DNA of 64,000 nucleotides from a virus. The stretch is taken from IMG/VR virus record IMGVR_UViG_3300043395_003277, positions 21,450-85,449 of that record; one strand, 5' to 3'. The translations under genes were made by a program, and so were the position numbers. The notes under the pieces were generated by a model that did not search any database, was not told where the DNA came from, and saw nothing but the letters and a program-made list of their open reading frames with translations. Below, piece by piece: positions 12,927 to 62,111 of this stretch (the first letter of the stretch is position 1; each line of letters starts with the position of its first letter).

Positions 12927-13032
12927 AAAAACAATTGTAAGCCCTACTCCGGTACCTCCCCGGATTCTCTGCGTTACAAAGGCAGCGCTTCAATTTAAAG
13001 CTTGCAGGGCGTATCGGAGCGCTCAGATTTGA
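12919..13032 (+). CDS. Possible truncated small gene (37 aa)
   Basis: ATG 12919 overlaps the Dps-like stop by eight bases and encodes MGEKTIVSPTPVPPRILCVT and a basic end, stopping at 13,030-13,032 inside the antisense strand of the tRNA-Pro gene. The first residues look like a real coupled gene, and the end is set by the tRNA sequence. It may be a gene cut off when the tRNA/HNH module arrived. Confidence 0.35.
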   Translation: MGEKTIVSPTPVPPRILCVTKAALQFKACRAYRSAQI

Positions 13033-13089
13033 ACTGAGATTATTCCTGTCCCCAAAACAGGTGCCATGACCAAGTTAGGCGACGCTCCG
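13014..13089 (-). tRNA. tRNA-Pro (anticodon UGG)
   Basis: On the minus strand: acceptor CGGAGCG/CGCTCCG (7 perfect pairs), U8, D-arm GCCT...TGGC with A14 and G18G19, anticodon stem CCTGT/ACAGG with loop TTTGGGG (anticodon TGG, G37), a 6-base variable loop, T-arm CTCAG TTCAAAT CTGAG, and discriminator A73. CCA is not encoded. The length is 76 nt. It reads CCA proline codons. The 3' end of the HNH ORF (13,023-13,550) passes through most of this gene on the same strand. Confidence 0.93.
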
Positions 13090-13550
13090 AAACTGTTTAC
13101 GTACTTTAACACCTTTTCTTCAATTAAAGCGCGATGTCTTGAGTGCCAAATCCGATGGTGGTTTGGACATAAAGGTATTAAATTCAAAGGACTGTTATCT
13201 TTATTGTTTCCGTTTAAATGGTGCACCTCAATAATTAAATTAAAACCGCAAAGGCAACATTCTTTTTTGTGATATGCAAAACAAATTGTTCTGTAATTAT
13301 TGCCTTGATAATTTGGATTGCATGTGCCTTTTCTAAAAAAACTGTTGTAACAACTTGTGCTACATGTTTTTTGTTCAGGATGTTTTAAAACGCCGCACTT
13401 CGGGCAAGGCGTCCCAAAAGCTGGGTTTTGCGTGCAAGTTTTTAAATGACGAATAATAAAAGGTTTTTTAAATTCTTTTTTGCAAAAAATACAGCACACT
13501 AAAGGATCTTTGCGCCCTCGCAAAAGATTGTTTAAAGAATTTTTATGCAC
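13023..13550 (-). CDS. HNH endonuclease running into a tRNA gene
   Basis: It starts at GTG 13550. Three Cys/His groups are visible: CCIFC...HLKTC, CPKCGVLKHPEQKTCSTSC, and the HNH core CCLCGFNLIIEVHHLNGNNKD followed by LCPNHHRIWH. The nuclease domain ends near KYVNS. The last 22 residues (GASPNLVMAPVLGTGIISVQ and I) are the in-frame translation of the tRNA-Pro gene, and the stop lies in its T-arm. A co-transcript could therefore give either mature tRNA or a full mRNA. HNH genes beside tRNAs are usually mobile. Confidence 0.85.
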   Translation of the reverse strand: MHKNSLNNLLRGRKDPLVCCIFCKKEFKKPFIIRHLKTCTQNPAFGTPCPKCGVLKHPEQKTCSTSCYNSFFRKGTCNPNYQGNNYRTICFAYHKKECCLCGFNLIIEVHHLNGNNKDNSPLNLIPLCPNHHRIWHSRHRALIEEKVLKYVNSFGASPNLVMAPVLGTGIISVQI

Positions 13551-21391: not shown

Positions 21392-21636
21392 GTCTCACCA
21401 GCACCACCTGAGACGCGTAATGGCTGCGGCATGCAGGTATCATCAGAAACTGACGCATGAAAAGTGATGATACGTCGTCTCTAAACCCCTATATGACGCA
21501 AATTACACTTTGAATGTAAAGTGTATGAAATTGCTTCACGTCGATAGAATGAGTCTCAAGTTGAGATACGTATTCTCAGGTTGATCTCATTTGAGAATCT
21601 CTGACAAATCAATACACTTTACATACAAAGTGTAAT
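21392..21636. repeat. Cluster of palindromes in a gene-free stretch (possible origin or operator array)
   Basis: No supported gene lies in 21,331-21,691. The stretch holds: GTCTCA/TGAGAC (21,392-21,414); GTATCATC/GATGATAC (21,437-21,473); a 25-mer palindrome-like unit beginning ATTACACTTTG at 21,502-21,526; TCTCAA-G-TTGAGA (21,554-21,566); ATTCTCA/TGAGAAT (21,572-21,598); and a second 25-mer at 21,612-21,636 that is the reverse complement of the first at 24 of 25 positions. The nested symmetry is far above the surrounding sequence. It may be a replication origin, a partition-like site or a multi-operator control region next to the replication genes. Confidence 0.65.
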
Positions 21637-51914: not shown

Positions 51915-53405
51915 TCAGACAGTACCGTCATCTTGGACGTAGCTGTAAGCAGTGGTAACAAAGTCCTTATTGAGGATTTCAAAACCAGCGTACAGTTGCC
52001 AAATCAGAATGATAAAGCGGCTGAAGTCATCGTTGTTGTTGATGAGCACCTGAGCGTTCGGGCCGCCGATGCCAACGCCAACAGACTGAGGACCGAAGAA
52101 GAAGCCTTGGGCAACTTCCTTGGAAGCATAAGTCGAACCACCATCGAAAGAAGTGGTGATGTTCTTGGTCGGGAAGTTGGTCGACTCGAAGAACTTAACG
52201 CCTTCAAACTGAACGCCGGTAGGCATCACAGGTTCGCCAGCCAGGAAGTAACCTTGACCAGCCTGAGGACCCATGTAGAAGCTGGCATTGTTCGGCATCA
52301 TGGGGTTGCCCATGTACATGCCTTGGCCAGGGTTACCAGCGTAACGGGCGATCTCACGGAAGTCTGGGTCACGACGCAGGTGCATCATGAAGGTGGGATC
52401 GCAAATGCAGCGATACAGGCCATCAGCGAACGTAGGGGTGTTGCGCTTACGCAGATCCTTAACAACGTTCAGAAGGTCGGTACGCACCGAGAACTGCTGC
52501 AGGTCGGCAGTGTACTCAGTACCGGTGTAGGAGATACGACCGGAAGAATCCTTGGTTTTGCCACCGGGGAAGAAGTAGCCACCTTGGGTGGTAGAAGCAG
52601 CACCATTGGCTTCTGCTTTGGCGAGTTCATCAATGAACACGCGGTCACGCCAACGGCGGTAGTCGTCAAGCAGCGTCAGGCTACCAATCGACTGGTGGAA
52701 CATATTCAGGTTGCCCGAATCCAGCAGCAGACGCTGAGCTGTGATCAGAGTTTCGCGAGCAATCTTGAAGGTGCTGGGCTGGGTCGGATCGCCCGGATCT
52801 GCAGGACCGGTGTATTCCTTAAGCACCACCAGGACCTTTTCCTTGGTGATGTTACGGCTGTTAGCGGTACCAATCGTTTGATCGGCAATACGCTCACGGC
52901 TGTCCTTAGTACCAGGGGTACCCCAGAACTTATAGCGATCTAACTGAACGGTTTGACCGGGCTGACGGGTGAAGTCGTGGACAACCACAGGCTCCACAGC
53001 CATTTCGGCAATGTAAGCAGGATGGGGACGATAGAGTTCCGCACCCAAGATTTTTGGAAAATCGTTCTCCTGGTCTCTAGTTTCTTAGAGGGGTGGACTA
53101 TCTCTTCATCCCTGTGGGATGCCGGACGCTAAATCTGGTATTACGTAACAAGATCGTGTTACCCCCAGTAGTCTCTGCACCTTCCAATCACGACTTGATT
53201 GGCTTGGCTCAGGATTACCCTCGTCTTTACGTTAGGGCTTCCCTGAATTCATCCGGTTTGCACCCATCAATTACTCGATGGGGTGACAACGTTGAGCGTT
53301 CAGTTGAAGCAATTTATTGCTTACCAGGACCTGAACCAGCTATCAATAAACACCTTGGTTTATCCTCCAGTGTCAGTGTTTTTATCGGGTGAAAGATAAA
53401 GACAC
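51915..53405 (-). CDS. Major capsid protein, split by a group I intron (join 53405-53394, 53066-51915)
   Basis: Exon 1 is GTG TCT TTA TCT (53,405-53,394), preceded by AAGG five bases before the GTG. Exon 2 begins at 53,066 (AAC GAT TTT) and runs to 51,915. The spliced protein is 387 residues and begins MSLSNDFPKILGAELYRPHP. Without splicing, exon 2 has no ATG before an in-frame stop, only a TTG at 53,048. Features such as VVHDFTRQPGQTVQLDRYKF and FADGLYRCICDPTFMMHLRR, the position after portal and scaffold, and biased codons all point to the capsid protein with an HK97-type fold. The capsid function is inferred, as no signature is decisive. Confidence 0.82.
53067..53393 (-). ncRNA. Group I self-splicing intron (no internal ORF)
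   Basis: The core elements on the minus strand are: P AATTCAGGGAAG (53,238-53,249), Q AATCCTGAGCCAAGC (53,202-53,216), R GTGCAGAGACTA (53,169-53,180) and S AAGAGATAGTCC (53,095-53,106). P4 (CAGG/CCTG), P5 (CCCT/AGGG), P6a (AATCA/TGATT), P7 (GACTA/TAGTC) and P9 (CTCTA/TAGAG) can form. P1 pairs exon 1 TTTATCT with the guide GGATAAA (53,359-53,365), ending in the required U-G at the 5' site. The intron ends in G at 53,067. Length 327 nt with no endonuclease ORF. Confidence 0.93.
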
Positions 53406-53450: not shown

Positions 53451-54011
53451 TTACATGTACTGCATGGTTGGTGCTTTGTAACGAGCACCTTCTGAATTGC
53501 TGGAACCATAAGATTCTGGATCAATGGCACCACCTTGAACGAAACCAGGCACACCGAGAGCGCCAGGAATCGCACCAAGGGCAACACCACCTAAACCAGC
53601 TGCGCCAGCGGCAGCAGGTGCGCCGAGGCCAGCAGTGAGCCTAGATACCAATTGCTGACCTTTCGGACCAACAGTGGCACCCTCAGCTGCCGCAATAATA
53701 TCGGCAGCTTTACCAACAATTTGACTGCGCTTATTCGCGCCTTCTGGCAGATTGCGGCCAATGTCGCCAACAATGTTGCCGAGTGGAATAACAGCTTTTT
53801 CTTGCACTGCATTCAGTAATTCTGGGGCATATTTACCAGCCAGACGACCAGCACCTAATGCACCTCGTGCACCAAGAGCAGCACCTAAGCCGCCAAGGAT
53901 TGCACTACCTGGATCTTCACCCTGTGCAGAAAGAGCCCCGCCAACTGCCAGACCGGCAGCGGCGGGAACTCCGTATGCAATCAGAGGACGAGTTTGTCCT
54001 AATGGTCGCAT
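53451..54011 (-). CDS. Ala/Gly-rich virion protein (186 aa)
   Basis: MRPLGQTRPLIAYGVPAAAG then Gly/Ala segments (GAALGARGALGAGRLAGKYA, GAPAAAGAAGLGGVALGAIP). Several weakly hydrophobic stretches could insert in membranes. It lies between scaffold and capsid genes. It could be a head minor protein or an ejection protein. Confidence 0.62.
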   Translation of the reverse strand: MRPLGQTRPLIAYGVPAAAGLAVGGALSAQGEDPGSAILGGLGAALGARGALGAGRLAGKYAPELLNAVQEKAVIPLGNIVGDIGRNLPEGANKRSQIVGKAADIIAAAEGATVGPKGQQLVSRLTAGLGAPAAAGAAGLGGVALGAIPGALGVPGFVQGGAIDPESYGSSNSEGARYKAPTMQYM

Positions 54012-54014
54012 GGA

Positions 54015-54992
54015 TCACTCCATCACAAAGAGTTTATTTGCAACAACTTGAGGTTGAGCATGGTTCAGAAGGCGCCAAGCTTGGCTGGGGTCCATATCCA
54101 TTTGTTGCTTAAAGCTGCCCCAGAAATTTTCAGGTTGCTGAGGAGCAGAAGCAGCGGGAGGAGCAGGGAACTGAGCGTTGGTCATGGGGTTAACAGCCTG
54201 AGTGGGATACCCCTGAGTCTCAAGTTCAGTCTCATTCTCATACACAGGGTATGGACCTTCCGGACCAAAGAACTTGAGAGTGTAATCACTCAGTACGTCA
54301 GGATTGGTCAGGATCTCGTTATATGCCAGGTTCTCTTGGTGCTCATTTACAGCGAACTTGGCATAGTTCTCGATCATGTCCTTGGCTTGACCGCCCCAAG
54401 CAACAGCGCTATCCAGCATGTTCTCCAGTTGGAGAGCATAGTTATTTAGGATTGCGGGCGCTTCCAGGCCGTACGCGTTGATTACGAACTGGCTTTCCGG
54501 GCTGAGGTTTTGCACCACTGCTTGCGCCGCCTGCTCCAAGGAGAGATTGGAGGAAGTTGGGGAAGAGTTGGGCGAGAATGTCTGGTTGGGAGACCAGGTC
54601 TGCGGAGCCGATTGTTGCGTAGCTGGGCTGCTGTACTGCTGCCCGTAGTTGGCCTGACCGTACTGGGTCGTCGGAGCTGACGGTTGAGTCTGGAACGGGG
54701 ATTGAACTGGTGCGCTCAGCAGGTTCACCACTTTGTTGAACGCCGATTCCCATGGGTTGCTGCTCGGAGCTTCCGGTTGGGACTGGGGGGCGTACTGAGT
54801 AGGGGCGGATTGGTAACTGGGGGCCGCCTGAGGAACCGCCTGCGGGTAGCTGGTACCCACCTGGTACGGAGCTGGAGCCTGTTGGACCGGGGCTGCTTGG
54901 TAGCTGGGGCTCGGAACCACGTAACTGCTTGGAGCCACCGCTGCCGGAGTTTGGCTCGTCTGTGGGATCGATTGGACGGTAGCGTCCTGCAT
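54015..54992 (-). CDS. Putative scaffolding protein (325 aa)
   Basis: Residues 1-150 are low-complexity Pro/Gln/Ser/Ala/Tyr (VVPSPSYQAAPVQQAPAPYQ). Residues about 155-325 are helical and acidic (LSPESQFVINAYGLEAPAIL, ENMLDSAVAWGGQAKDMIEN). A disordered first part with a helical end, placed between portal and capsid, is typical of scaffolds. The first 551 bases overlap the portal gene in another frame. Confidence 0.66.
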   Translation of the reverse strand: MQDATVQSIPQTSQTPAAVAPSSYVVPSPSYQAAPVQQAPAPYQVGTSYPQAVPQAAPSYQSAPTQYAPQSQPEAPSSNPWESAFNKVVNLLSAPVQSPFQTQPSAPTTQYGQANYGQQYSSPATQQSAPQTWSPNQTFSPNSSPTSSNLSLEQAAQAVVQNLSPESQFVINAYGLEAPAILNNYALQLENMLDSAVAWGGQAKDMIENYAKFAVNEHQENLAYNEILTNPDVLSDYTLKFFGPEGPYPVYENETELETQGYPTQAVNPMTNAQFPAPPAASAPQQPENFWGSFKQQMDMDPSQAWRLLNHAQPQVVANKLFVME

Positions 54993-56739
54993 AACTCATC
55001 TCCTTTTGTAGAGCTTCTAATGTTCGATACAGATATGGCGTTAAATCCAATCTTGGATCCGCAGCCATCGGTAAATCCGGGGCTTGCGGGTGAGGAGTCT
55101 GCATCATTCCCCCCACTAGTTTTGAGAATGCAGCGTAAGCACCCTGCAACTCATTCACCATCCTGAACGGGAACCCAGATAGCATCTCGGCCCGTTCCTC
55201 ATCCGTCTTAGACGGGAAGAGGTATTTCAGTGCTTCAATGCTATCAACACCTAATTCCTGAAGATTTCGCACGACAATGGAGTTGTTCAGGATGTCTTGA
55301 GTTGATTCCTCATAGACAGGACCCAACCAACGCCAAAGAACCGTGACATCACCATCAGGTATAAGACCCATTACTCCAGGTGGAATTACCTGGGTCTCAA
55401 TACAAGCAAGCATAAGCCTTTTTAAGATGTCATTGTATTGTTTCATTGCTTCTTTATATGCCTGCTCTTCTTCCGGGGTGGCACCAGTAGCAAGATCAAC
55501 TGGTTTCTCGATACCTGCTGCAGCTGCAAGCGTCGACTTGAAAAGCTGTTCTTCTTGATAAATAATCAGTTCAAGACAACGGCAAATACCATGAGTGTAA
55601 ATAGCATTTGCTTTTTTCTTTGATGTTGCAGCAACACGACCGAACAGAGACTTGTACTCTGTTGCGGTAACGCCAGCAGAAATTGATAACTCATCAACAC
55701 CGCCTAATGCGGTACGAATTTCTTCTCGGTACTGACGAGCGAATGCATTCTGGTCTCCAGTAATTGCATCTGGGACGATGTAACCAACACGATCGTTAGG
55801 CTCCAGGTTTGCAATGATGCGTGGCACACGGATAGCACCATCAACGCCACGACTGACTGGATCAGCCTTAAACATGGAACGGCTTAAGGGTGACGGACTC
55901 GTGAAGCCCGAGTTTGCTGCAATAGAAGGACGCTGAACTGTTGCACTATCACCTGACTCCATCAGGTCTGTCTTTGGCCTGGAAGAAAGAAGAGTTGGAT
56001 TACCAAAGAAAGTAATATTCTTTCGAATAGTACGCATTAATTCATCATGGGTGCAAATGTGATTCGCCATGGAATCAAATTCGCCAACGCCTTCGGTTGA
56101 GAACCCCTTGGGATTATTAAAAATTTCAACGCAAGGAATAAAACCAAGACTGTTTTTAAATGTTTTTGTTGTACCCGTTAATGCATAGGTGGGAACATCA
56201 AAAGAAAGCTCGGCTTCAGAGTGCGTTTCTTCAATCTCCCTTTGTTTAATTGCAAGCCTGATATAGCGTTTTGCTCCGGGATTCCAAGTTGATTGAGTGC
56301 CTGAAATATTGTTAACAGCAATATCATTGCCAAAGCCGTTACCACGACGCACCTTGTAGCTGTAAATGATTACAACTTCATCCAGCTCACCATCAACGTT
56401 GTAATACGCTCGATATTCGTGTTGACGGAAATAGTAAAGTCGGTAGCTCTGTTCAGTAGGACGAATATAAAACAACCCTTTTCCATCGCACAGGAAATAC
56501 TCCCAGATTGAATCCAGGCGTGTATCCATTTTGTTGTATTTCAGCACACGATCAAGAAAATCTTTGCGTTGTGCACCGAAATTGTCTTGAGAAGGAAAAA
56601 ATTCAACACCCTGTCGGATGCCAAATAACTTCATCTGAGCAATATGAGACGCTACAACGCCAGTGTCGACAACAATGTCACTATCTTTTTCAAGATAAGA
56701 ATTAATGATTTCTTGAAGACGAGCCTTGGCGTCAGCCAT
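54442..56739 (-). CDS. Portal protein (765 aa) with Pro/Ser/Gly-rich C-terminal extension
   Basis: The sequence has a portal-like order: N-terminal helical wing (LQEIINSYLEKDSDIVVDTG, FFPSQDNFGAQRKDFLDRVL), a stem with YYNVDGELDEVVIIYSYKVR, clip and helices (FARQYREEIRTALGGVDELS, SAGVTATEYKSLFGRVAATS, KKANAIYTHGICRCLELIIY) and a crown to about residue 585. The last 180 residues are Pro/Ser/Gly-rich and overlap the scaffold gene in another frame. The portal forms the dodecameric DNA gate at one capsid vertex. Confidence 0.83.
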   Translation of the reverse strand: MADAKARLQEIINSYLEKDSDIVVDTGVVASHIAQMKLFGIRQGVEFFPSQDNFGAQRKDFLDRVLKYNKMDTRLDSIWEYFLCDGKGLFYIRPTEQSYRLYYFRQHEYRAYYNVDGELDEVVIIYSYKVRRGNGFGNDIAVNNISGTQSTWNPGAKRYIRLAIKQREIEETHSEAELSFDVPTYALTGTTKTFKNSLGFIPCVEIFNNPKGFSTEGVGEFDSMANHICTHDELMRTIRKNITFFGNPTLLSSRPKTDLMESGDSATVQRPSIAANSGFTSPSPLSRSMFKADPVSRGVDGAIRVPRIIANLEPNDRVGYIVPDAITGDQNAFARQYREEIRTALGGVDELSISAGVTATEYKSLFGRVAATSKKKANAIYTHGICRCLELIIYQEEQLFKSTLAAAAGIEKPVDLATGATPEEEQAYKEAMKQYNDILKRLMLACIETQVIPPGVMGLIPDGDVTVLWRWLGPVYEESTQDILNNSIVVRNLQELGVDSIEALKYLFPSKTDEERAEMLSGFPFRMVNELQGAYAAFSKLVGGMMQTPHPQAPDLPMAADPRLDLTPYLYRTLEALQKEMSYAGRYRPIDPTDEPNSGSGGSKQLRGSEPQLPSSPGPTGSSSVPGGYQLPAGGSSGGPQLPIRPYSVRPPVPTGSSEQQPMGIGVQQSGEPAERTSSIPVPDSTVSSDDPVRSGQLRAAVQQPSYATIGSADLVSQPDILAQLFPNFLQSLLGAGGASSGAKPQPGKPVRNQRVRPGSARNPK

Positions 56740-57746: not shown

Positions 57747-59273
57747 TCAGTAATCAACCTGAAGGTTGCCCTTACGCATAAGACCGTTGATTAAAAATAC
57801 CAACGCATCAACACAGTCATCATGACTACTAACACCAAAGTTCGTAAGTTCTTCAAACATTGCCGTGAAGTTGCGATAACGATTAAAGATGATCTTGCGT
57901 TCTTCAAAAAGACCCATGCAACCTCGGAAGCGAGCAAGCTTGTCAGAACGGAAACCTTTAACTGGATGCCAAAGCAGGTTCCAAAGGCCCTCGCCATTTA
58001 AACAAACACGTTTAAAATCTGACTCCAAGGAAGCTTGGTACGCAACTGCTTCCGAATAAATGTCACAGGTTGAATGTGTAGGAAAATACAAACCATTCAC
58101 ATCAGCACCAAGTACTGACCAGTCGTGAAGCAATTCTTTCATTGCATCAAGTTTTTCTAGATTACCCATGACACGAATGCGTCTGTAATCAATCACGTGA
58201 ATCTGATCACCAATGCGTCCGCCAAGGACCATAACGGTGTAGTCATTCTTTTCTTTAGTGCCAGCAGAAAGGTCCACACCCAAGCCAAGCGTGTCAAACT
58301 CCGTTGCAATTTCTGCTTTAACAATTAGTTCAGGTGCAAGCGACAGCTCATTCTGCCTGATGACCTGGTTCATGTACTGGAAAGAGAAAGCAATTGGAGC
58401 TTGCCGTTTCTTTTCTTTCAAGTAATCAAGTGACCACATCTCTGGCCAATAAGAAAGCTCTTCTCCTGTCTTGGGATCATTCAAGATGGCAGATAGAACA
58501 ATCTGACGCCAGTTGTTTTGTTCATTAAATGTCGTTGCATGAATATCATCATGGCGGAAGCGTGTTCCAAGGCAAATGGCCCTGGCGCCTTCAAACATGG
58601 TCGGCGCAATCACCGCATTCCAGTTCTCTTGCATTTGTTTGCGGATGTCTGGGTTTGCAATATCAGCTGCAGATTTAATAGCGTCATCAATCATGACAAG
58701 GTGAGATCGTTTTGATGTCACCGAGCCTTTCAAGCCTGCAGCGCAAAGAGTGAATTGTTCTTCACCTGTGGTACTGATACCAGCAAACTTGTGATCAATA
58801 GACCAATACTCGTTACTGGTCGCGCTCTTCAGTAAACGGACTTTAGGAAAAACTTCTTGATATCGTTTGCTCTCAATGATACGTTTGATGGTTGCCGATT
58901 TAGACCGTGCAATATCAACGGTATAGGAAAGGTATAAAATTTGCAGCGGCATTTTGGCATGCGTGTGGATACCAATAGCCCATGCGGTTAAAAGGCCAAG
59001 GACTGTAGATTTTGCCGATCCCCGTGGTGCAAGTAAATCAATATTGGGACCAGCAATCTTGATCAGACAACTACTATCTTGCTCTGTGACAAAGTGTCGG
59101 TGCCAATGCTTGTGGTGCTCGGCGGGAGGTTTATTTGCAACGTATTCACAAAAGAAGCCAAAATCCTCACGCGCACGTTGAAGAGCAGCTGCGTTTTTGG
59201 GTGGCCTAATTTGCTGTTGCTGTGCCGCAGCTCTGGCATTACGACGGTAAGCAAGATGTTGGTATGCGGGCAC
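57747..59273 (-). CDS. terL: Terminase large subunit
   Basis: 508 residues. The ATPase domain has Walker A LLAPRGSAKST (81-90), LYLSYTVDIARSKS, Walker B HLVMIDDAIKSA, and a coupling motif (CLGTRFRHDD). The nuclease domain has GLGVDLSAGTKEKNDYTVMV with the first metal-binding Asp, and SSHDDCVDALVFLI with the last acidic pair. This motor packages DNA into the prohead. It starts at GTG 59273 with a 9-bp hairpin six bases upstream and no clear ribosome binding site. Confidence 0.93.
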   Translation of the reverse strand: MPAYQHLAYRRNARAAAQQQQIRPPKNAAALQRAREDFGFFCEYVANKPPAEHHKHWHRHFVTEQDSSCLIKIAGPNIDLLAPRGSAKSTVLGLLTAWAIGIHTHAKMPLQILYLSYTVDIARSKSATIKRIIESKRYQEVFPKVRLLKSATSNEYWSIDHKFAGISTTGEEQFTLCAAGLKGSVTSKRSHLVMIDDAIKSAADIANPDIRKQMQENWNAVIAPTMFEGARAICLGTRFRHDDIHATTFNEQNNWRQIVLSAILNDPKTGEELSYWPEMWSLDYLKEKKRQAPIAFSFQYMNQVIRQNELSLAPELIVKAEIATEFDTLGLGVDLSAGTKEKNDYTVMVLGGRIGDQIHVIDYRRIRVMGNLEKLDAMKELLHDWSVLGADVNGLYFPTHSTCDIYSEAVAYQASLESDFKRVCLNGEGLWNLLWHPVKGFRSDKLARFRGCMGLFEERKIIFNRYRNFTAMFEELTNFGVSSHDDCVDALVFLINGLMRKGNLQVDY

Positions 59274-59676: not shown

Positions 59677-60297
59677 TTAACCTTCATCAAATTGTATTTT
59701 AGCCCATACGCTCATTGAAGCTTCTTCCAAAGGAATTTCAATTGGATCATCCTTGAAGACAGAAAGCAACTCTCGAATGGCGCGATCAGCGCCAGCCATT
59801 AACAAACCTTTGCGATCTCTGTTGTTAACAAACTGCTCAATCTGAGCAATTGTGCCACGTAGTTCTTTTTGCATAGAAGCAATGCGGGCGACACCGGCAT
59901 CACGTTTTACCAGACCGTCATCCACATCGCCACGAAGCTTGCGGATGTCTTCTTGCATTTCAGAGATTTCGTAAAGCAAGGTCTTACGGTGATCCGGTTT
60001 TGGATACCGATCGTTTACCCACGCTTCGCAACAAACAATGCTTCCGTTATACCCAAGGAAACGAGCATAAAGGAAGCTTTCAATTACAGAGTAATTACTA
60101 GCGGCAAAGGCGGTAAAGGCTTCTTGTTCAGAACACGTTAAGTTATCGACCCATTGATCAAATAACTCAATATCGATAAGCTCGTTGGGCCTGGTTGTAG
60201 TCCCTTGCTTCGTCCGATTGCCTGAACTGCTGGCCTTGTTCAGCGGAGGTGCGCTGTTCTTCTGCGCCTTTGCCAATGGTTTCACGTTCTTGTTCAC
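59677..60297 (-). CDS. Putative terminase small subunit (206 aa)
   Basis: The N-terminal 35 residues are basic and disordered (KPLAKAQKNSAPPLNKASSS). Then IDIELFDQWVDNLTCSEQEA, FTAFAASNYSVIESFLYARF and a helix pair with a coiled coil (LLYEISEMQEDIRKLRGDVD). An N-terminal DNA-binding part followed by a coiled coil, directly before terL, fits TerS. The sequence signature is not decisive. Its 5' end overlaps the 82-aa gene by 131 bases. Confidence 0.52.
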   Translation of the reverse strand: MNKNVKPLAKAQKNSAPPLNKASSSGNRTKQGTTTRPNELIDIELFDQWVDNLTCSEQEAFTAFAASNYSVIESFLYARFLGYNGSIVCCEAWVNDRYPKPDHRKTLLYEISEMQEDIRKLRGDVDDGLVKRDAGVARIASMQKELRGTIAQIEQFVNNRDRKGLLMAGADRAIRELLSVFKDDPIEIPLEEASMSVWAKIQFDEG

Positions 60298-60651: not shown

Positions 60652-61380
60652 TCAACCAAAAGCTGCGTTAATAAGATTGTACATGTTGCCAGCAAGCTGA
60701 ATTTTACCAAGTGATTTATCCGCTTCAGCACGTGTTTTTGTCGATTCCAGGCCGTACCGCCCTGTGGTTTCCGCAACATCGCGTGCTGCGTCGCCTTCAA
60801 TTTCTGCGACACGAGCTAAGCCTGCGTTAATGATTGGTTGCAGTTGTAAACGCCCCTCAATCTCAAGCCCAGCAACAGCTCTACGCCATTCAGCTTCTTT
60901 ATCCGCACTGTACTTGGTGCCCTCCAGACCAAGCTCACCTAAATAACGTTGAGCACCAGCTTGAACTTCGGTGCCACGAAGACCAAGCTCTGCTGCATAG
61001 CGCTGGGCTTCTGTTTGTAAACGAGTACCCTGAAGACCAATATCTGCTACGTAACGATCTGTATCTGCGCGGGAACGCTGGATTTCTTTATCGGCTTCCG
61101 CACGAATAGTTGTTGAGTTGACAAGACCGCTATAGCTGATCTGTGCCAGCTGTACATCGTAATCACCACGCTGTTTGCCAAGAGCAAGTTCACCTCCATA
61201 AATATTTTCCCAGTAAGTGCCATAACCAGATGGGACTACTGTGCCAGAAGGAACAAACCCACCGCCTGAATAAGTAGGACTTACAGAACTTCTCGGCAAA
61301 GGGCCAACAAAACCAGAAGAATATGTTGTTGGTCCCAAAGAGATGGGGGTTATGTTAGATGATCGGTTTCTTCTTGGCAT
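60652..61380 (-). CDS. Virion protein with helical tandem repeats (242 aa)
   Basis: The N-terminus is Ser/Gly/Pro-rich. Residues about 105-175 hold three 18-residue repeats: DRYVADIGLQGTRLQTEA, QRYAAELGLRGTEVQAGA, QRYLGELGLEGTKYSADK. They should form a long amphipathic helix. A further helix follows. The repeats suggest a tape or core protein. No family recognised. Confidence 0.64.
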   Translation of the reverse strand: MPRRNRSSNITPISLGPTTYSSGFVGPLPRSSVSPTYSGGGFVPSGTVVPSGYGTYWENIYGGELALGKQRGDYDVQLAQISYSGLVNSTTIRAEADKEIQRSRADTDRYVADIGLQGTRLQTEAQRYAAELGLRGTEVQAGAQRYLGELGLEGTKYSADKEAEWRRAVAGLEIEGRLQLQPIINAGLARVAEIEGDAARDVAETTGRYGLESTKTRAEADKSLGKIQLAGNMYNLINAAFG

Positions 61381-61403
61381 TGTATTTATTGTTTTCTTTT
61401 AGT

Positions 61404-62111
61404 TTAAGCGCGGTTGGTTGAAACTGTAGCAGTTCCGGTATTGGGTCCATATTTTGCCAGCATGCCAGCGAAGTCTGGTGTTCGATAATAATTGGTATAA
61501 CGCCCCGTTTCGTCGCGATAAGGATCACCAAACATCATGCTGAGTTGTTCTTGTTGCGGCGTCATGACCTGACCGCGAGCAACCATCTGTTGTTTGAGCA
61601 TGTCGCCAAAAGCTTGGGGGCTGCGGATATTTAAGCTTTTTGCACGATCAACAAAAGCACCAAAATCTTCAGGGCTAAAGCTTAAATTCTGCTGTTTATA
61701 CAACTCATCCGCTGCACGCCAATAGCCAGTTTGAGAATAGTCAGGATCTACTTGATAGCTTTTTGTTAACTCTTTTTCAAACTTTTTATTATTTACATAC
61801 CGATTAATATATTGCTGTAAAAGATTTTCTGCAGCACCGGGGTTGCCGGCACGCTGATACATCTGCGCTTCAGATAAAATGCGATTTTTGGTGGCTTTAG
61901 TCGCACGTACTTGTCTTTCGCCATATTTGATTAAATCTTCCTGCAGTGGTGTTGGCTGATAAACAGGAGGTTGAATAGCAGCGCCGCCACCAAAGCCGCC
62001 AAACAAGCCACCGGCAATGCCACCGATTGCCGTGCCGATAGGACCGAATGTTGAACCAGTGGCAGCACCAGAGCCAATGCCCCCAAGTAACCCACCAAGA
62101 CTAAAAGACAT
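61404..62111 (-). CDS. Virion protein with Gly-rich N-terminus (235 aa)
   Basis: MSFSLGGLLGGIGSGAATGS then IGTAIGGIAGGLFGGFGGGA is a glycine-zipper-like segment able to insert into membranes. The rest is helical and Gln-rich (ERQVRATKATKNRILSEAQM, DMLKQQMVARGQVMTPQQEQ). This fits an ejection protein that crosses the cell envelope. TAAAAT lies 23 bases upstream. Confidence 0.64.
   Translation of the reverse strand: MSFSLGGLLGGIGSGAATGSTFGPIGTAIGGIAGGLFGGFGGGAAIQPPVYQPTPLQEDLIKYGERQVRATKATKNRILSEAQMYQRAGNPGAAENLLQQYINRYVNNKKFEKELTKSYQVDPDYSQTGYWRAADELYKQQNLSFSPEDFGAFVDRAKSLNIRSPQAFGDMLKQQMVARGQVMTPQQEQLSMMFGDPYRDETGRYTNYYRTPDFAGMLAKYGPNTGTATVSTNRA

Follow-up and report, generated by a model that had tools for sequence, protein, structure and literature searches.

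Long out-of-frame gene overlaps are usually put down to pressure on tiny genomes. In the Microviridae, protein B of phiX174 is the internal scaffolding protein and, in phage lambda, synthesis of the scaffold Nu3 begins at an internal start within the upstream gene for the head protease C. Scaffold synthesis in phage P22 is autoregulated post-transcriptionally, and we know of no long portal-scaffold overlap in this phage. Concerning phiX174, B is read out of frame in A, whose C-terminal region is a predicted overprinted extension (PMC8227390). More than 80% of prokaryotic overlaps share less than 30 bp, and the RNA-unfolding model of translational coupling involves an RNA structure around the downstream start, the presence of a Shine-Dalgarno (SD) sequence and an upstream gene that is translated through the structure (PMC12548453). 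A literature search, with subscription papers mostly outside its range, returned no paper on portal and scaffold genes of a tailed phage that overlap over a long stretch in different frames.

The locus analysed here lies in a window of 64,000 nucleotides (positions 21,450 to 85,449 of IMG/VR record IMGVR_UViG_3300043395_003277); the full record has 85,449 bases and belongs to a virus of the S-EIV1 cyanophage lineage. Its nearest parallel is the phiX174 A/B pair, where a scaffold-type gene also starts inside the upstream gene, in another frame and with its own start. However, phiX174 is a 5.4-kb ssDNA phage under size pressure, in which A is a replication protein and B lies wholly inside A, whereas the S-EIV1 lineage has a terminal overlap in a tailed-phage-type genome of ~80 kb, with a portal as the upstream gene and a predicted RNA domain at the scaffold start. 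In lambda, Nu3 is in frame with C and shares its sequence, whereas the frames differ in the S-EIV1 lineage. As for P22, the order of gene 1 (portal), gene 8 (scaffold) and gene 5 (coat) is as found here, with no detectable sequence relation. Finally, the portal/scaffold pair has in common with the coupled pairs of the RNA-unfolding model a predicted structure at the downstream start, an SD sequence and an upstream gene expected to be read through the structure, but prokaryotic overlaps are mostly short, whereas here 551 nt are read on past the downstream start and the structure spans ~290 nt.

Synechococcus phage S-EIV1 (KJ410740) is the only isolate phage record matching the portal and capsid genes of the window, with identities of 73% for the portal, 82% for the terminase and 85% for the capsid, and with the same gene order. 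On the minus strand, this order is terminase, small genes, portal, scaffold-like gene, a 186-aa gene and major capsid, and the main features are the following:

57747-59273, minus strand: terminase
54442-56739, minus strand: portal ORF of 765 aa (core, residues 1-582; overprinted tail, residues 583-765), assigned from PHROG matches and gene order
54015-54992, minus strand: scaffold-like ORF of 325 aa (residues 1-183 within the overlap, the remainder outside), assigned from its position between portal and capsid
54442-54992, minus strand: dual-coding overlap of 551 nt, the scaffold being in the +1 frame relative to the portal (ORF coordinates, conservation and selection)
51915-53065, minus strand: major capsid

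The 186-aa gene (53451-54011, minus strand), located between the scaffold-like and capsid genes, codes for a Gly/Ala-rich protein of unknown family that is kept in the relatives. The sole tRNA gene of the window is a tRNA-Pro(TGG) at 13013-13090 on the minus strand.

As for the identity of the two overlapping products, the portal ORF matches PHROG 20475 (virion structural) with an E-value of 1.7e-277 and, weakly, the portal family phrog_64 (E = 2.6e-4 here and 3.5e-5 at best, with nine of the 16 members matching), while a PDB profile search gave no match. Since its gene also sits between the terminase and the scaffold/capsid genes, the product of 54442-56739 is called here a putative portal protein, on this weak PHROG match together with gene order. 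For the scaffold-like ORF, which is found between the portal and the major capsid, no family match and no homologue was found, and the PDB profile search gave nothing useful; going by gene position and composition only, this second head protein is most likely a scaffold. AlphaFold2 predicted helices at its residues 152-241 and 287-323 and coil in the N-terminal half, with a pLDDT of just 43, and both this model and that of the portal (pLDDT 36) were too poor for a fold search.

At the start of the major capsid gene (region 53066-53359, minus strand), codon 5 is split by a group I intron (RF00028, 92.5 bits). When the splice sites are deduced from relatives that lack the intron, exon 1 (GTG TTT ATT GAT A) falls at about 53353-53341 and exon 2 starts from about 53065. 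Among 113 relatives, the insert is absent in 84, measures ~270 nt in three (including the window) and ~815-940 nt in 26, and a homing endonuclease may be encoded in the longer inserts. RF00028 was found in six of the seven further loci scanned besides S-EIV1, the two without it being S-EIV1 and L075. In the S-EIV1 record, the region 60784-62010, which holds the major capsid gene (tblastn 60907-62007), is covered by one CDS on the minus strand and a short one on the plus strand.

The original prediction, made from the letters of the window, was that of a 551-nt out-of-frame overlap between the portal C-terminus and the scaffold N-terminus, and the ORF coordinates give exactly these bounds (54442-54992). 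Both shared stretches are, as it had described, low-complexity and proline-rich, the portal frame being G/S/P/Q-rich and the scaffold frame A/S/Q/P-rich. Two features stand immediately upstream of the scaffold ATG:

55000-55007, minus strand: scaffold SD sequence AAAAGGAG, 7 nt before the ATG (54992-54990)
54996-54998, minus strand: in-frame TGA barring upstream scaffold starts, which ends three bases before the ATG

Because this TGA lies in the scaffold frame just before the ATG, the full scaffold ORF has one usable start. Portal-to-scaffold frameshifting was considered as well, internal initiation being the simpler reading given the TGA and the strong SD sequence.

Relatives were gathered from five IMG/VR scans and one bacterial-genome scan, to which S-EIV1 was added. 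Complete data were obtained for 341 loci, corresponding to 191 distinct sequences, since one and the same contig was often reached more than once. The overlap is kept in all 341 loci, always in the +1 frame and over 509-668 nt (191 distinct sequences, down to about 70% amino-acid identity), and its length varies mainly through shifts of the portal stop and small in-frame indels. A portal ending near residue 585, which had been named beforehand as the observation that would speak against the overlap, was found in none of the 341 loci (191 distinct sequences). The start motif AAAGGAGATGAG(T/C)TATG is present in 191 of the 191 distinct sequences, and the conserved signal goes past the predicted interval, up to about 55254. 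The bacterial-genome scan gave one 11.4-kb contig filed under a bacterial MAG (L241, RFNU01000069.1), which carries a phage of the S-EIV1 lineage, with the overlap intact. Concerning the outgroups Pelagibacter phage HTVC023P and Myoviridae ctsTn925, only a distant terminase similarity was found, and hhalign detected no relation for their portal or scaffold candidates.

The reading that we favour, with a probability of roughly 0.6, is true dual coding plus a cis-acting RNA that would control the internal initiation of the scaffold. Scaffold translation would begin at its own internal ribosome-binding site within the portal gene, where a folded RNA domain would partly hide the scaffold SD and AUG; ribosomes travelling on the portal gene would open this fold and so tie scaffold synthesis to portal translation, as in RNA-unfolding coupling, and a head protein binding the RNA could possibly give feedback. 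Scaffolds are normally required in far more copies than portals, so that strict coupling on its own would be surprising, and additional, efficient initiation would have to take place. As for the portal tail, its Gly/Ser/Pro-rich sequence would act as a flexible linker, and the short conserved motif at its end, AQLFPN, may, more speculatively, dock the scaffold or another head protein. The original proposal that the overlap fixes the stoichiometry or timing of the two partners is plausible, and translational control would be the likeliest route because the predicted folded RNA surrounds the scaffold start.

The RNA part of this reading starts from the observation that portal synonymous sites are frozen for about 87-90 codons upstream of the scaffold start. 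Up to codon 493, the observed/expected ratio of synonymous heterozygosity is 0.86-0.90; it falls to 0.20 at codons 494-503, ranges from 0.19 to 0.54 onward to the scaffold start and reaches 0.03-0.04 at codons 579-593. An additional ORF hidden in this stretch was rejected, as stops occur in all other frames. The elements of the predicted structure are as follows:

54964-55251, minus strand: structured RNA domain that spans portal codons ~496-592 and has the scaffold SD and AUG within it (synonymous constraint, folding z-scores and consensus structure)
55243-55251, minus strand: 5' strand of the predicted closing helix, GGUGUUGAU (pair probability 0.88-0.98 in the 56-sequence consensus)
54964-54972, minus strand: 3' strand of the predicted closing helix, AUCGAUCCC, in scaffold codons 7-10 (56-sequence consensus)
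54974-54987, minus strand: predicted hairpin GGACG-CUAC-CGUCC just past the scaffold AUG, its stem being invariant in 56 of 56 sequences
55125-55153, minus strand: predicted hairpin with compensatory changes (columns 119-126: GC 39, AU 13, GU 4; columns 112-132: UA 30, CG 9)

The strands of the closing helix stand at both edges of the frozen block, and the SD and AUG are therefore inside. When the 100-codon element was subjected to synonymous codon shuffling in five diverse members, the folding z-scores were -4.6, -3.0, -4.9, -5.4 and -3.9, and in these five members the z of the element is below that of every non-overlapping window of the portal gene. At the alignment level, the folding energy has a z of -4.1 with columns shuffled and of -4.6 with identical-residue codon columns shuffled, vs. 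-2.0 to +0.8 for control stretches. In the consensus structure, which was derived from this same alignment, standard pairs make up 98.6% of the pair cells, against 36-50% after sliding, and both-sided changes occur in 25 cells, led by the hairpin at 55125-55153, vs. a shuffle average of 8.4, with none of 500 shuffles reaching 25; covariation is confined to a few pairs because most predicted pairs never vary. Third positions are more variable where they are unpaired in the consensus (p 0.006-0.008) and, at paired four-fold sites, the per-option use of pair-keeping alternatives is about seven times that of pair-breaking ones. The unpaired probability calculated from a single sequence does not predict synonymous variability (rho 0.09), and the average probability of the closing helix in single sequences is 0.46. 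Rfam 15 contains no family matching the element, the single hit being a chance one on the other strand (E 0.087, 11 bits vs. a gathering score of 70). As a whole, the constraint and folding analyses, along with some covariation, support a conserved RNA domain of ~290 nt, predicted to consist of the last ~87 portal-core codons and the first ~10 scaffold codons.

What this domain does can also be read differently. A tentative alternative, clearly behind the reading above, retains dual coding and takes the frozen upstream stretch for a leader belonging to a distinct scaffold-capsid transcript, for an element acting in RNA processing or stability, or for the landing site of a regulatory protein or small RNA. 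The constraint does start sharply at codon ~495, like a transcript 5' end, and the fold hides the SD and AUG by half only (mean unpaired probabilities of 0.47 and 0.38, respectively); yet no promoter-like match was found on the minus strand near 55260, promoter matches are at chance level, and the 5' block of the element has no second copy within the window, unlike a shared late promoter, unknown phage promoters being beyond the reach of both observations.

It is improbable that the upstream freeze results from a recent sweep or recombination of the segment through the lineage, or from codon-level effects, instead of RNA structure. Codons 567 and 573 carry all four bases at high frequency beside frozen sites, which is not what a sweep gives, and the fold stands out as exceptional under two types of shuffling, one of which preserves local codons; the preference for pair-keeping alternatives at paired four-fold sites goes in the same direction, although the amino acids of the frozen stretch are also very conserved, as this explanation would have it.

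Selection on the two frames was analysed in two ways. In a codon-position comparison of 52 relatives with less than 97% nucleotide identity, the mean differences at positions 1, 2 and 3 were.127,.058 and.441 in the portal-only part and.147,.093 and.392 in the scaffold-only part. In the overlap, they were.273,.145 and.208 for the portal frame and.144,.176 and.293 for the scaffold frame, so that neither frame alone fits. In addition, single-base differences in 21 phylogenetically disjoint pairs were classed by their effect in both frames (portal first; S, silent; N, non-silent), which gave.0753 for SS,.0179 for NS,.0071 for SN and.0014 for NN. The corresponding omega values are 0.20-0.24 for the portal tail (p below 1e-8) and 0.08-0.09 for the scaffold, the two estimates per frame being in agreement. 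Changes creating a portal stop while remaining silent in the scaffold were never seen, vs. 15.8 expected, whereas 47 were seen in the scaffold-only control region. Tight conservation of portal residues 691-735 (omega 0.06-0.18) coincides with a relaxed scaffold frame (omega up to 0.22), these values coming from pooled, non-independent pairs, and the last ~30 portal residues are weakly constrained. Three motifs within the overlap are conserved:

54778-54822, minus strand: portal-tail motif PQLPIxPYSVRPPxP, residues 640-654
54556-54627, minus strand: portal-tail motif PSYATIGSADLxSQPxxLAQLFPN, residues 705-728, conserved where the scaffold frame relaxes
54690-54758, minus strand: scaffold motif NPWESAFNKVVNLLSAPVQSPFQ, residues 79-101

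The check that had been proposed, synonymous-site constraint across the overlap, thus revealed a strong signal in both the codon-position differences and the substitution classes. On the evidence of sequence evolution, the overlap codes for two proteins, both frames being under purifying selection throughout the lineage, in agreement with the overprinting of portal C-terminus and scaffold N-terminus that had been suggested. The other suggestion, that one tail may be an accidental extension, is rejected by stop avoidance and selection, and finds an echo only in the weak constraint on the end of the portal.

In its full form, this last idea holds that the scaffold frame alone is functional in the overlap and that the portal functionally ends near residue 585-600, the tail being a tolerated accident. 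It would account for a scaffold omega below that of the portal tail, for a codon usage that fits the scaffold frame and for those loosely kept last ~30 residues, but we consider it very unlikely in view of the avoided portal stops (0 vs. 15.8), a portal omega of about 0.2, the motifs kept at 705-728 while the scaffold varies there, and the presence of the tail in each of the 191 distinct sequences. A scaffold start farther downstream, giving a short product, was also tried and rejected, because the scaffold frame is selected inside the overlap and the SD/ATG of the full start is invariant. That the second protein begins after the portal stop, with the N-terminal half of the scaffold ORF untranslated, deserves next to no credence: the deposited S-EIV1 record annotates only a scaffold-like gene cut to 133 aa (CDS 59863-60264), and the methionine of MLDSAV is found in 98 of 103 relatives, but the scaffold frame is under strong purifying selection inside the overlap, the full-length start is invariant in its SD and ATG, and the MLDSAV methionine precedes the portal stop in more than one third of the relatives, with no SD preserved upstream of it.

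Concerning the age of the two frames, the relative synonymous codon usage (RSCU) of the scaffold frame in the overlap correlates with that of the rest of the scaffold gene (r = 0.60), vs. r = 0.16 for the portal frame and the rest of the portal gene. A codon-usage argument for the overprinted, younger frame has been applied to phiX174 (PMC8227390). As the portal frame of the overlap is unlike the rest of the portal in codon usage, the portal tail is probably the younger of the two, a newcomer overprinted onto an older scaffold frame.

Going beyond true dual coding with an RNA-controlled internal start, a bolder and rather unlikely possibility is that of a new class of phage riboregulator, in which the ~290-nt portal-coding RNA would sense head assembly, e.g. 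by binding free scaffold or portal protein, and would set the scaffold:portal ratio via the internal start, while the portal tail, born by overprinting the scaffold gene, would bind the product of the same DNA.

At the level of the lineage, roughly 190 codons are lacking from the beginning of the second gene in the S-EIV1 reference annotation, and catalogues of the lineage consequently carry a truncated head protein. Throughout this widespread cyanophage lineage, the overlap is retained with no exception, and it joins two proteins expected to meet in head assembly. With genomes of about 80 kb and assembly partners as the two products, compression explains the overlap poorly, and regulation or co-adaptation would do so better. 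The predicted RNA element would offer a concrete handle on how the ratio of assembly partners may be set post-transcriptionally.
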